Assembly (NCBI RefSeq): GCF_000993825.1
Contig: NZ_CP011114.1
Coordinates: forward strand, 2,852,001-2,916,000
Direction of reading: 5' to 3'
DNA length: 64,000 bases
Source of the DNA: Paenibacillus durus ATCC 35681
GTDB taxonomy: Bacteria > Bacillota > Bacilli > Paenibacillales > Paenibacillaceae
This document shows positions 21,924-55,828 of this stretch, in pieces. The notes under the pieces were generated by a model, which did not search any database, was not told where the DNA came from, and was given only the letters and a program-made list of their open reading frames with translations. Every line of letters starts with the position of its first letter. The first letter of the stretch is position 1. The position numbers and the translations under genes were made by a program.

Positions 21924-23477
21924 TCAAGGAGTGTACTCATACATATAATCCTGATTGATGCTGCCGCCGGTTGTCGCTTTTGCCGGGAACATCGCCTCTG
22001 CCATCCGAATCGCTTTCAGCATGCCCTTCGCCTTGTTTACGGTCTCCTCATATTCCTTCTCCGGCACCGAATCCCATACAATACCCGCCCCTGCCTGGAC
22101 ATAAGCCCGGCCTTTGCGGAAAATAATCGTCCGAATCGTAATGCAGGAATCCATATTTCCGGAGAAGCCAAGATAACCGATTGCTCCCGCATACGCTCCC
22201 CTTGCCTCACGCTCAAGCTCGGCGATAATCTCCATCGCCCGCAGCTTCGGCGCTCCGGATACAGTACCCGCCGGCAGGCAGGAGAGGAATGCGTCGAAAA
22301 AGTCTTTATCCTCGCGAAGCGAGCCCGATACATTCGACACCATATGCATAACATGGGAGTATTTCTCGATTTCCATGAAAGAATCGCATTTGACGGTTCC
22401 GAACCTCGACACCCGGCCAAGATCGTTGCGGCCAAGATCGACGAGCATCAGGTGCTCGGCTCTCTCTTTTTCATCCTCCAGCAGTTCTGCCGCCAGCGCG
22501 CGGTCCCGCGCCTCGTTCTCGCCTCTGGGTCTTGTTCCGGCAATCGGGCGGGTCTCCACATGATCACCGTCCACCTTCACCAGCGCCTCCGGCGATGTTC
22601 CGACGATGATCTCCTCATCCATTTTGAGATAATACATGTACGGGGACGGGTTCAATGTGCGCAGCAGCCGGTACACATGGAGCGGAGACACCTCGGTATT
22701 GATATGAAACCGCTGGGACAGCACCACCTGAAAAATATCGCCTGCCCGAATGTACTCCTTGGCCTGCTCCACATTATCGATAAACTGTTCCTTCGTCAGG
22801 TTGGAGTGAATGTCTCCAAGCTCGATATCCTGCGGGATGCTCCGACGGTTCATGTTTTCCTTCGGGGATTCTTTGTACAGCTCCTCCGCCATTTCTTCCA
22901 GCTTGCTGTTCAGCTTCTCGTAGTTCGCCCGGATATCGGAATCCGTATCGCCGTCCTTGACATGCAGGTTGCCGACCAGCAGAATCTGCTGTTTGACATG
23001 GTCGAACACGATAATCCGGTCGCAGAACATGAAGCGGATATCATCCATATTCAAATCGTCGTTGGCATGAGCCGGCAGCTTCTCGTAATACTGAAGCAGA
23101 TCATACCCGAAGAATCCGATCGCCCCGCCGGTAAACGGCGGCATTTCCGCAAGCTTAGGGCTGCGGTACGAACGCAGAAGGGCCTTCAGCTCTTCGATCG
23201 GCTTGCCTTTCAGTTGTCTGTTCTCGCCGCCGATTTCCACGTTGATCGCGCCCTTTTTGCCGGAGATAAGCAGAAACGGATCGCTGCCGATGAACGAATA
23301 CCGGGCCCATTGGATGCCGCCCTCCACGCTTTCCAGCAGAAAGGCATTCTTCCGTCCGGCGAACCGCTGGAATATCCGGATCGGGGTTTCCATATCGGCC
23401 AGCAGCCGCTTGACTACGGGAATCAGATTATACTGCCGCGAGAGCGACACCACTTGTTCTACATTGGGACTAGTCAT
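21924..23477 (-). CDS. trpE: Anthranilate synthase component I
   Basis: Converts chorismate to anthranilate, the committed step of tryptophan synthesis. The 517-aa protein has the LLES sequence linked to tryptophan feedback binding (about residue 40) and the catalytic C-terminal chorismate-binding domain (PIAGTRPRG, HLMLVDLGRNDLG, GAPKLRAMEI). I chose the ATG at 23477 because AAGGAGG lies 8 nt upstream. First structural gene of trpEDCFBA-hisC-tyrA, placed behind a long regulated leader. Confidence 0.97.
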   Translation of the reverse strand: MTSPNVEQVVSLSRQYNLIPVVKRLLADMETPIRIFQRFAGRKNAFLLESVEGGIQWARYSFIGSDPFLLISGKKGAINVEIGGENRQLKGKPIEELKALLRSYRSPKLAEMPPFTGGAIGFFGYDLLQYYEKLPAHANDDLNMDDIRFMFCDRIIVFDHVKQQILLVGNLHVKDGDTDSDIRANYEKLNSKLEEMAEELYKESPKENMNRRSIPQDIELGDIHSNLTKEQFIDNVEQAKEYIRAGDIFQVVLSQRFHINTEVSPLHVYRLLRTLNPSPYMYYLKMDEEIIVGTSPEALVKVDGDHVETRPIAGTRPRGENEARDRALAAELLEDEKERAEHLMLVDLGRNDLGRVSRFGTVKCDSFMEIEKYSHVMHMVSNVSGSLREDKDFFDAFLSCLPAGTVSGAPKLRAMEIIAELEREARGAYAGAIGYLGFSGNMDSCITIRTIIFRKGRAYVQAGAGIVWDSVPEKEYEETVNKAKGMLKAIRMAEAMFPAKATTGGSINQDYMYEYTP

Positions 23478-23533
23478 TTGTCGTTCCTCCTTGGACTTAG
23501 AAAGGGTTAGCACATCATACGTCACCCGGGTCT

Positions 23534-23662
23534 TTAGCTTCGAAAACAGGGCCTAAAATGCAGAAAAACCTCCACCGAAGTAGAGGTTATATTAAACAAG
23601 CGTATATAAGAGCGGGATTCCGGCTTCCAGGAAATGCAATGGCTCCACGGCGGATCATTCAT
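23534..23662 (-). CDS. trp leader upstream ORF 2 (42 aa), spans the attenuator
   Basis: A 42-codon ORF with CGGAG 8 nt before its ATG. Trp codons are at positions 6 and 12; the first lies inside a GTGGAG that duplicates the 3' arm of the attenuator hairpin. The ORF then runs through the whole terminator and stops 56 nt before trpE. A translating ribosome would therefore melt the terminator. No homology is recognised; it is probably a regulatory leader peptide if translated. Confidence 0.45.
   Translation of the reverse strand: MNDPPWSHCISWKPESRSYIRLFNITSTSVEVFLHFRPCFRS
23564..23587 (-). terminator. Attenuator terminator upstream of trpE
   Basis: ACCTCTAC/GTGGAGGT stem with the stable TTCG loop, followed by five T on the minus strand. 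It stands 87 nt before the trpE start and 335 nt after the presumed transcription start. A GTGGAG at 23643-23648 can compete for the 5' arm, giving a candidate antiterminator. Confidence 0.75.
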
Positions 23663-23679
23663 GAAGAAAACTCCGCACA

Positions 23680-23826
23680 TCAGAACAACGCAAATGCGAT
23701 TTCGGAAAAAGACGCTACCCACATATAAGGGCGATAAAGTTCGGAATATACATAAGCGGGCGACAATCCATCATCAGATATCCATGCACGTGTAAGCCTG
23801 CTAATCCGCAGTCCCTGTACCTGCAT
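23680..23826 (-). CDS. trp leader upstream ORF 1 (48 aa)
   Basis: A 48-codon ORF beginning about 30 nt after the TRAP site, with AAGG 8-10 nt before the ATG. Trp codons are at positions 15 and 36; the C-terminal third is hydrophobic. It ends 18 nt before upstream ORF 2. Its start lies inside a possible stem between GTGTAAG (the end of the TRAP site) and CTTACAC (23790-23796). No family recognised; it could be a leader peptide or chance. Confidence 0.4.
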   Translation of the reverse strand: MQVQGLRISRLTRAWISDDGLSPAYVYSELYRPYMWVASFSEIAFALF

Positions 23827-23857
23827 ATCTCGCGCCTTGTATGTACCCTAAAAATCC

Positions 23858-23912
23858 CTTACACTCTGCTCTTCTCAGCTCATCTAAACTCAGTCTTGGC
23901 TCTGCTTCACTC
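23858..23912 (-). promoter_or_regulatory. TRAP (MtrB) binding site, eleven NAG triplets
   Basis: On the transcribed minus strand, eleven triplets (seven GAG, three AAG, one UAG) begin every 5 nt, with two 6-nt steps; a CAG lies one step further upstream. Eleven (G/U)AG repeats with 2-3 nt spacers are the known target of the 11-subunit TRAP ring. The array starts about 5 nt after the predicted transcription start. The TRAP gene is encoded at 34359-34607 in the same window. Confidence 0.88.
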
Positions 23913-23922
23913 GTCTGTTTAC

Positions 23923-23952
23923 ACTATACATGATACCAACGCTTATTGACAA
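23923..23952 (-). promoter_or_regulatory. Sigma-A promoter of the trp operon
   Basis: TTGTCA and TATAGT with 18 nt between, directly before the TRAP site. The predicted start is near 23916, about 440 nt before trpE, so trp genes can be expressed independently of aroC-aroB-aroH. Confidence 0.75.
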
Positions 23953-24052
23953 CCCCTGGACAACTTTATGATGTGGGAGACTTGCATCACTGTTTAAAGC
24001 GTTCCCTTGGCAAGGACTTGGTAAACTGTCATTTACCTTCCAGATAATCGCG

Positions 24053-34358: not shown

Positions 34359-34607
34359 TTAGATGCCGCTCTCCAATTGTCCGTGCTTGGTCATGATCTC
34401 CGCCTTGCCGCGAATTTTCATCGCCGAGGTATGATCGGTAAACTGCGCAATCAGCACCTCTCCCTTGTCGAGCTTCTCGGTATGATGAAAGCGGGTATCC
34501 AGACCTCTCGTCAGCCCGATCACCTGCACGCCGTTCTCTTTGGCCTTGACGACGATATAGTCGCTCTCCGCCGCATCCGGGGCGCCTTCGTTCTTGCTCT
34601 CGCTCAT
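34359..34607 (-). CDS. mtrB: trp RNA-binding attenuation protein TRAP
   Basis: Tryptophan-activated RNA-binding protein that forms an 11-membered ring and wraps (G/U)AG repeats. The 82-aa protein has an 8-residue longer N-terminus than B. subtilis MtrB, then aligns without gaps. Lys45, Lys64 and Arg66 match the RNA-contacting Lys37, Lys56 and Arg58. GGAGG lies 8 nt before the ATG. In B. subtilis mtrB follows mtrA (folE); here it follows hbs directly and has its own terminator. Its target is the site before trpE at 23858-23912. Confidence 0.96.
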
Positions 34608-34644
34608 CGCTAGTCCTCCCTTCGGAAATATCGCTTTGCCGCAC

Positions 34645-34676
34645 TTAAAAATAAATGCCGCCTGAAAGGGCGGCAT
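34645..34676 (-). terminator. Terminator after hbs
   Basis: ATGCCGCC/GGCGGCAT stem with a 6-nt loop, followed by TTATTTTTA on the minus strand, between hbs and mtrB. Confidence 0.75.
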
Positions 34677-53746: not shown

Positions 53747-54018
53747 AAATTGATCAAACAAAACCGATGATGGAACAAAGTTACTGAAGGTCTTCAGAGA
53801 GCCGGCGGATGGTGCAAGCCGGTGGCGGACAGTGTACTTTAGCGCTCCTGAGATATTGTGTTGAACTAATAGTAGGCACAATCGGATCACCTCCGTTACC
53901 AGTGTTCCTGTTTTCAGGAAATGAGGCTGTGTCTGTAAAGGATGCGGTGAATTAGGGTGGTACCACGACAACTCTCGTCCCTTACTGCGGAAGCGGTATG
54001 GATTCGGGAGTTTTTTTG
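53747..54018 (+). ncRNA. T-box leader, serine-type, upstream of serA
   Basis: tRNA-sensing leader that blocks termination when tRNA-Ser is uncharged. The T-box sequence AGGGTGGTACCACG is at 53954-53967 (consensus AGGGTGGNACCGCG, one change). Stem I carries the AGAGAG motif near 53795. The specifier region reads TTTAGCGCTCCTGAG, giving an AGC (Ser) codon followed by a purine. The terminator is AACTCTCG/CGGGAGTT with seven T (53970-54018), overlapping the antiterminator. serA makes the first serine precursor, which fits. Confidence 0.88.
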
Positions 54019-54134: not shown

Positions 54135-54235
54135 CACCTTCTTCTGTGGAAAAGCTGTTTCAGGTAATTCGGAGAGCCTTAAAGGGCCTCCTCAAAAATA
54201 ATAATGTTCACACATTTAAGGAGGAAAAAGAAATC

Positions 54236-55828
54236 ATGTTTAAAATTTTGGTATCGGACCCGATCAGCGATCTGGGCATTCAGCAGCTGACGGAAGCAAG
54301 CGACGTAACGGTAGATAAAAAAACAGGACTCAGCGAGGATGAACTCATTGCGATTATCGGCGAATACGACGGCCTGCTCGTACGCTCCCAAACGACTGTC
54401 ACCGAGAAAATTATCGAAGCGGGGTCCAACCTGAAAGTAATCGGACGTGCTGGCGTCGGCGTTGACAATATCAATCTGGAAGCCGCCACGAAGCGCGGGG
54501 TTGTCGTGATTAACGCGCCGGACGGCAATACCATTACGACCTGTGAGCATGCCTTTGCGATGATGATGGCTCTGGCCCGCCATATTCCCCAAGCCTATGC
54601 GAAGACCATTAACGGCGTCTGGGACAAAAAATCGTTCCTCGGCGTTGAGCTCCGCGGCAAAACGCTTGGCGTTCTCGGCATGGGCCGGATCGGCAGCGAA
54701 GTAGCCAAACGCGCCAAAGCATTCGGCATGAACATCCTGGCCTTTGACCCGTTTCTAACGGCTGACCGGGCGGAGAAGCTGGAAGTTACACTGGCGTCCG
54801 TCGATGACATCGTAAAAGGCGCGGACTTCATTACGGTTCACACTCCGCTGACTCCGCAAACGCGCCATATGATTTCCCGCCCTCAGTTCGAGGTAATGAA
54901 AAAAGGTATGCGCATCGTCAACTGCGCACGCGGCGGCGTTATTGACGAAATGGCTCTGGTGGAAGCTATTGATGCAGGGATCGTGGCCGGAGCGGCTTTC
55001 GACGTATTCGAGAAAGAACCGCCGCAAGCGGATCATCCTTTCCTGTCGCATCCGAAGATTATCGTTACTCCGCACCTTGGCGCATCGACAGTGGAAGCGC
55101 AGGAGAATGTGGCGATCGACGTATCCGAGCAGGTGCTGCATATTTTGCGGAACGAGCCGTTCATCAACGCGGTTAACATTCCTCCGGTGGCTCCAAGCGT
55201 TATGAACAAGCTGCAGCCTTACTTCACTCTCGGTGAGAAGCTTGGCAGCTTCGCTTCGCAGATTACGAACGGCGCCATCAACGAAATTCATGTAGAGTTT
55301 GCCGGTGATCTCTCGGACGTCGACACCCAGCCGCTGAACCGGTACATTGTCAAAGGCGTACTGTCCCGCCACTTCGGCGGCGACGTCAACATCGTCAACT
55401 CCATGCATCTCGCCAAGACTCGTGAAGTGAATGTAGTCGTGACGAAAGCTTCGAAGACCAAAGGCTTCACCAACCTGATTACAGTGAAGATTATTGCCGA
55501 GGGAGGCGAAGAGCGCCTCGTGGCTGGTACACTTCTGCAAGGATACGGAGAGCGGATCGTACAGCTCGGTAAATTCCCGGTTGATATCGCTCCGGAAGGC
55601 AACCAAATCTTGATCTCCCATAACGATAAACCCGGCATTATCGGCAACGTGGGTACGCTGCTCGGCCAGAACGACGTCAACATCGCGTCGATGCAGGTGG
55701 GACGTACCGTTATCGGCGGTGAAGCCATCATGCTGCTGACCGTCGATAAAGAAGTTCCGGATGATGTGCTGGTGAAGCTCGCCGCCCTGGCCGAGATCAA
55801 TACAGCCAAAGAAGTCGTGCTGCAGTAA
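54236..55828 (+). CDS. serA: D-3-phosphoglycerate dehydrogenase
   Basis: First step of serine synthesis, from 3-phosphoglycerate to 3-phosphohydroxypyruvate with NAD. The 530-aa long-form enzyme has the NAD-binding GMGRIGSEVAKRAKAFG, catalytic Arg (NCARGG), Glu and His (TPHLGAST), an intervening domain (about 320-450) and a C-terminal ACT domain (about 455-530) for serine feedback. AAGGAGG precedes the ATG at 54236. Confidence 0.97.
   Translation: MFKILVSDPISDLGIQQLTEASDVTVDKKTGLSEDELIAIIGEYDGLLVRSQTTVTEKIIEAGSNLKVIGRAGVGVDNINLEAATKRGVVVINAPDGNTITTCEHAFAMMMALARHIPQAYAKTINGVWDKKSFLGVELRGKTLGVLGMGRIGSEVAKRAKAFGMNILAFDPFLTADRAEKLEVTLASVDDIVKGADFITVHTPLTPQTRHMISRPQFEVMKKGMRIVNCARGGVIDEMALVEAIDAGIVAGAAFDVFEKEPPQADHPFLSHPKIIVTPHLGASTVEAQENVAIDVSEQVLHILRNEPFINAVNIPPVAPSVMNKLQPYFTLGEKLGSFASQITNGAINEIHVEFAGDLSDVDTQPLNRYIVKGVLSRHFGGDVNIVNSMHLAKTREVNVVVTKASKTKGFTNLITVKIIAEGGEERLVAGTLLQGYGERIVQLGKFPVDIAPEGNQILISHNDKPGIIGNVGTLLGQNDVNIASMQVGRTVIGGEAIMLLTVDKEVPDDVLVKLAALAEINTAKEVVLQ

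Follow-up and report, generated by a model that had tools for sequence, protein, structure and literature searches.

How could a protein bound at the very beginning of a transcript decide what happens at a terminator some 270 bases downstream? The question is raised by the trp leader found within the stretch of DNA analysed here (64,000 nucleotides, called the window). I propose that this leader is a TRAP attenuator with a long-range antiterminator, the classic scheme stretched over distance, and put the probability of this at roughly two in three.

The leader and its surroundings

On the minus strand, the leader separates an ORF read as aroH from trpE, in what appears to be an aro-trp cluster (names were given by eye, except for trpE). 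The features discussed below are the following.

34359..34676, minus strand: mtrB, encoding the TRAP protein (PF02081 match covers 34368-34568)
24424-24053, minus strand: ORF read by eye as aroH
23923..23952, minus strand: sigma-A-type promoter of the trp operon (TTGTCA 23952-23947, 18-bp spacer, TATAGT 23928-23923)
23858..23912, minus strand: predicted TRAP site of eleven NAG triplets (7 GAG, 1 TAG, 3 AAG)
23900..23907, minus strand: antiterminator strand 1a, AAGCAGAG, triplets 2-3; predicted to pair with 23585-23578, CTCTACTT, terminator 5' arm and loop
23878..23887, minus strand: antiterminator strand 2a, TTAGATGAGC; pairs with 23601-23592, GCTTGTTTAA, in the full-leader MFE fold and the duplex prediction
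23868..23873, minus strand: antiterminator strand 3a, AAGAGC; pairs with GCTCTT 23612-23607 in the MFE fold and the duplex prediction
23853..23858, minus strand: strand 4a, GGGATT, immediately after the triplets; pairs with AATCCC 23619-23614 in the fold and the duplex prediction
23791..23864, minus strand: stem of 7 pairs proposed in the initial annotation, GTGTAAG (23864-23858) with CTTACAC (from about 23797)
23622..23852, minus strand: variable loop separating the antiterminator strands, containing uORF1 and the start of uORF2
23680..23826, minus strand: uORF1, 48 aa, unconserved and considered a chance frame
23534..23662, minus strand: uORF2, 42 aa, spanning the terminator and considered a chance frame
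23592..23621, minus strand: conserved box, GGAATCCCGCTCTTATATACGCTTGTTTAA, immediately 5' of the terminator and complementary to the TRAP site
23562..23588, minus strand: intrinsic terminator (attenuator) with a 9-bp stem, a UUCG loop and a T-run
21924..23477, minus strand: trpE, start ATG at 23477

The TRAP gene itself is close at hand. It lies about 10 kb upstream of the leader on the same strand, is the single TRAP gene that a profile search finds in the genome (PF02081, E 3.4e-40), and has a product of which about 67 residues align to solved TRAPs. There was no match to anti-TRAP in the genome, although TRAP is present, with a model (PF15777) that also matched 4 of 14 control genomes, three of them non-Bacillus. 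TrpE shares 99% identity with its P. zanthoxyli counterpart and 96% with the one in P. forsythiae, and by its sequence the host genome is a Paenibacillus or close to one.

The triplets run GAG-AAG-GAG-AAG-GAG-TAG-GAG-GAG-GAG-GAG-AAG with spacers of 2,2,2,3,2,2,2,2,2,3 bases, eight of the eleven being of the (G/U)AG type, and the first begins about 10 bases past the -10 box. No strict (A/G/T)AG run with 2-3-base spacers in the 64 kb is longer; the longest others have 5 triplets on the minus strand and 4 on the plus. A run of eleven is far beyond chance inside the window. A search of the genome (5.58 Mb) with a strict pattern of six triplets gave one hit, at this site, but its reversed control gave two, and a match to six triplets by itself is therefore unspecific.

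At the other end of the leader, about 270 bases after the last triplet and ahead of trpE, is the terminator, AACCTCTAC-TTCG-GTGGAGGTT-TTT, whose 5' arm is 23588-23580 and whose 3' arm is 23575-23567. The 3' arm (GUAGAGG in many species) repeats the motif GUAGAG of the TRAP site. The 5' arm can thus choose between two partners of like sequence, the TRAP site or the terminator's own 3' arm.

The promoter, the eleven triplets, both ORFs and the terminator all proved to be where the initial annotation had placed them; the terminator does lie inside the second ORF, and a GTGGAG at about 23650 does repeat the terminator's 3' arm. What that annotation did not mention is the box at 23621-23592 and its complementarity to the triplets.

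Seven close relatives (L003-L009) were aligned with the window as a set of eight leaders. Both promoter hexamers are identical in all eight. Invariant columns make up 48 of 64 in the TRAP region, 34 of 48 in the box and terminator arm, and 67 of 239 between them; the middle region is the least conserved part of the leader. Taken as a whole, the leader appears to be a real, well-conserved TRAP leader with a lineage-specific layout.

Predicted pairing between the TRAP site and the terminator

Under the proposed mechanism, the TRAP site, the first part of the transcript to be made, would double as one strand of an antiterminator. The second strand would be the 30-base box about 240 bases later, together with the terminator's 5' arm. 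When tryptophan is scarce and TRAP inactive, the free triplets would pair with the box and the arm as they emerge, the terminator hairpin would be blocked, and polymerase would enter trpE. When tryptophan is plentiful, TRAP would occupy the triplets, leaving the box and the 5' arm free, and the terminator would fold and stop transcription. The region between the strands would be a spacer loop, its sequence and its short frames dispensable. I infer that TRAP binds here, that the leader switches, and that the window's own RNA behaves in the same way.

Taken alone, the window makes a poor case for this. Its pairing is no better than chance and weaker than that of most relatives: 32 of 100 shuffled boxes pair as well, the natural order of triplet units does no better than a scrambled one (z +1.0), and the 5' arm has no partner above 0.05 in the nascent-fold ensemble. 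Strand 1a is predicted to form a duplex with CTCTACTT with one internal mismatch, and the sequences are invariant in 8 of 8 close leaders; in the ensemble of the window's own leader the pairing is weak. The helix of strand 2a keeps 10 of 10 pairs in five close leaders and 8 of 10 in three, strand 3a is invariant save for one gap, and the helix of strand 4a keeps 4-6 of 6 pairs. An RNAalifold consensus of the eight leaders does pair site with box, mostly through invariant pairs, and the antiterminator helices are 95.2% paired and nearly invariant, with no two-sided change among these eight (500 of 500 shuffles as high). Since the window's own pairing is weak and its near relatives offer no co-variation, the claim rests on the wider family.

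That family is large. The trpE gene was found in 100 of 100 genomes of the same genus and the region upstream taken from each. When these Paenibacillus leaders were compared, TRAP site and terminator proved conserved, a TRAP-like site and a terminator being located by pattern in 99 of the 100; one leader (L131) was dropped when the terminator pattern failed, an insert splitting its box. In all 99 a duplex between site and box is predicted, at -24 to -40 kcal/mol, across a loop of 120-433 nt (median 160). In the nascent RNA, folded up to the terminator's 5' arm, at least 10 pairs join site and box in 99 of 99 leaders, at least 15 in 98, and the 5' arm is engaged in 4 pairs or more in 84.

Extra leader sequence was seen in L016, L031, L098, L131, L087, L125 and L128, with inverted repeats in some. 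It sits between the TRAP site and the box or 3' of the terminator, and the loop of L098 reaches 433 bases.

How much of this pairing is special? Being rich in purines, a TRAP site will pair well with whatever pyrimidine-rich stretch it meets. The nascent fold contains 31.7 pairs with real boxes, 24.7 with shuffled boxes and 12.0 when everything downstream is shuffled; because shuffled boxes still give 24.7, composition explains part of the pairing. The mean duplex z is -1.36. Then there are the two tests that keep composition intact. Exchanging boxes between species weakens the pairing, at a z of -4.27 with 24 representatives (matched by 1 of 20,000 permutations), and does so with fewer representatives (49 of 20,000 with 13, and 76 of 20,000 with 8); five very diverged representatives gave no signal (10,055 of 20,000). 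Scrambling the order of triplet units, each a triplet plus its spacer, also weakens it, with a mean z of -1.03 and t of -4.8 for 31 representatives and t of -3.6 for 14 (at least 10 triplets were detected in 82 of the 99 sites).

Individual pairs tell a similar story. Seventeen named pairs, picked by eye on the same alignment of 33 of the 99 leaders that was used for counting, are 87.6% paired, compared with 83.9% in shuffles and 40-53% when slid, and they show 13 two-sided changes against 4.1 in shuffles (0 of 500 as high). In the genus helix homologous to that of strand 2a, for example, the U-A of most species becomes C-G in the window's clade. RNAalifold gave no genus-wide consensus structure for the 33 leaders, probably owing to triplet registers that differ between clades.

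Since the named pairs were chosen on the alignment in which they were counted, the held-out test matters more. The best 80 of 365 loci comprised 39 already included and 41 new ones. At least 8 triplets were found in 34 of the 41, with loops of 124-338 bases; the 5' arm is paired in all 34 and at least 15 pairs form in 32. With fewer than 8 triplets the arm is paired in 4 of 7. Box exchange in the held-out set was matched by 72, 56 and 176 of 20,000 permutations with 11, 8 and 7 representatives, respectively. The ends of the leader are conserved and co-vary across the genus, in support of the notion that the predicted TRAP site, at the extreme 5' end, controls an attenuator far away from it.

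If the triplets govern the terminator by pairing, then blocking them should favor the hairpin, and in folds of the 99 full leaders it does: the terminator reaches at least 0.8 at equilibrium in 84 with the triplets unblocked and in 99 with them blocked. Since it forms at equilibrium in most unblocked leaders, the switch must be kinetic, dependent on the order of synthesis. Counted from the last triplet, TTNTTT, which I take to be a NusG pause signal, starts 17 times within 10 bases, 2 and 9 times in the two bins that follow, and 20 and 35 times at 30-49.

The layout extends beyond the genus. Of 299 genomes sampled from the class, 210 have TRAP. In genomes hand-picked to spread over families, 20 leaders came from outside the genus but within the order, some from the same family and some from others. 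A terminator of the CCTCT(A/G)C type lies 76-350 bases after the last detected triplet in 16 of them, and in 14 of these 16 at least 4 pairs join its 5' arm to the TRAP site. In other Bacilli the terminator is 9-50 bases past the site in 12 of 17 leaders, of which 5 of 12 show at least 4 arm pairs. These counts omit 13 loci (L155-L162, eight; L178-L182, five, 37-42% identical) and include doubtful rows: for L172, L145 and L146 the hairpin taken as the terminator is probably not the right one; few triplets were seen in L136 and L153, no terminator in L174 and L151, and no pairing in L169.

It is possible, and I offer it tentatively, that the order to which Paenibacillus belongs evolved a TRAP attenuator of its own, in which the site would serve as antiterminator strand, the terminator's 3' arm as a competing second copy of the motif, and a long, arbitrary loop (76-433 bases, inserts tolerated) as a timer for TRAP binding, replacing the pause of B. 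subtilis.

The intervening region and other explanations

The initial annotation had placed the decisive events in the middle of the leader: TRAP, bound at the 5' end, would perhaps break the GTGTAAG/CTTACAC stem around the start of the first ORF, and translation of uORF1 and uORF2 would decide whether the terminator forms. Both frames do exist, and uORF2 extends over the terminator, with Trp codons close to GTGGAG. They do not survive comparison. Among the seven close relatives uORF1 is intact in none, owing to a frameshift, a stop or the absence of the aligned ATG. The start of uORF2 is kept in three (L003, L004 and L005) and missing in L006-L009, its frame crosses the terminator in two (L004 and L005), and none has its second Trp codon. 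With the ORFs unconserved in close relatives, the translation-coupled part of the proposal has no comparative support, and attenuation coupled to the uORFs was rejected.

The stem fares better, up to a point. CTTACAC, as letters, is unique to the window among the close leaders, and the pairing largely survives in them: all 7 pairs in L004, 6 in L003, L005, L007 and L008, 5 in L006 and 4 in L009, with one U-A replaced by C-G through changes on both sides in L007 and L008. It is 83.9% paired, compared with 80.4% in shuffles (16 of 500 as high), and because the last triplet is inside it, bound TRAP would open it. Against this, two-sided changes are in no excess (the observed value is reached in 55 of 500 shuffles), and across the 99 genus leaders local stems that start where the TRAP site ends do not exceed chance in strength (mean z 0.0; 5 of 99 below -1.64), in the least conserved region at that. 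The stem may belong, at the level of the clade, to the fold of the loop itself. It is very improbable that the annotated scheme holds, even in the reduced form that retains the stem only as a part changed by TRAP. The segment 23595-23850 is single copy in the genome, and a mobile origin of the loop sequence was rejected on that ground.

Three other accounts need to be weighed against the long-range antiterminator. The GTGGAG repeat might, in the window's clade, be the antiterminator strand that holds the CTCTAC of the terminator, TRAP having an indirect effect only. All six bases are complementary in the window; of the 7 close relatives, 2 likewise form the 6 pairs and five form 4-5, but GTGGAG is exact in 1 of 7 and the terminator's 5' arm, as noted, finds no partner above 0.05 in the window's ensemble; GTGGAG as a local antiterminator was thought unlikely, and the account built on it is highly doubtful. 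A broader objection is that composition by itself yields the complementarity, since a GAG-rich site would pair with any CU-rich terminator, and that TRAP acts otherwise, for example directly on RNA polymerase. The pairing retained by shuffled boxes and the window's chance-level pairing both speak for this, as do reports from B. subtilis (PMC3913778) that TRAP can bring about termination independently of the attenuator and that regulation survives its deletion. It is too much to expect of composition, however, that pairing should weaken genus-wide when boxes are swapped or units reordered, and a direct push would be the less likely with polymerase about 270 bases past TRAP at the terminator. 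I consider the composition account unlikely. Lastly, the terminator might be constitutive, the leader setting a basal level while TRAP represses translation of trpE. That most unblocked leaders form the terminator at equilibrium fits this well enough. The ribosome site of trpE, however, shows no excess sequestration in the TRAP-free fold of 96 leaders (unpaired 0.50, versus 0.46 with shuffled upstream sequence), and the co-variation of site and box would be left unexplained; this account is scarcely credible.

A known switch in a proposed new geometry

Among RNA switches TRAP attenuation is a textbook case, and most study of it has concerned one layout. A group of bacteria that kept TRAP but parted the antiterminator strands by 100-300 bases would show how far the switch can be stretched, and its natural series of loop lengths would allow timing to be tested against pausing. 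In the long-range layout TRAP should not need to act on polymerase directly, and its binding site would be under a double constraint, from the protein and from base pairing. Searches of the openly licensed literature found no account of such a layout in Paenibacillus; older comparative work in subscription journals may mention it.

The leader also invites comparison with other kinds of attenuation. In E. coli, the trp operon is attenuated by ribosomes translating a leader peptide. Like such a leader, the one in the window has frames with Trp codons that precede and overlap the terminator; unlike it, the frames are not conserved in close relatives. Long leaders, alternative antiterminator and terminator, and a biosynthesis gene downstream are features shared with T-box leaders. 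Rfam gave no match up to E = 1 in the window's 23440-23980, RF00230 included, and a T-box or other Rfam element in the trp leader was rejected. The window's only T-box match (RF00230, 105 bits, 53758-53985, plus strand) lies about 160 bases 5' of an ORF read as serA (54146-55828).

The closest relation is to B. subtilis. According to PMC3913778, the trp leader there is 203 nt long, with a mapped 5' stem-loop and an attenuator stem at +108 to +133, and an AB antiterminator competes with the attenuator until TRAP binding prevents the antiterminator from forming; pausing buys TRAP the time to bind (PMC12288461). Measured against that account, the window has the same kind of parts: a PF02081 protein, (G/U)AG-type triplets with 2-3-base spacers, and an attenuator hairpin before trpE. 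Unlike B. subtilis, it would have no room for a 5' stem-loop, the site starting about 10 bases past the -10 box, and its attenuator is far from the TRAP site, about 270 bases in the window and 120-433 across the 99 leaders of the genus. The terminator of the window has a 5' arm that complements the triplet motif and carries a T-run, whereas the attenuator of B. subtilis is described as a weak terminator. The initial annotation had set the leader apart from the overlapping antiterminator of B. subtilis. The contrast holds for distance, the strands being far apart, but probably not for overlap: the genus data suggest that antiterminator and attenuator overlap here as they do there. On this reading the mechanism is a known one and the geometry new.
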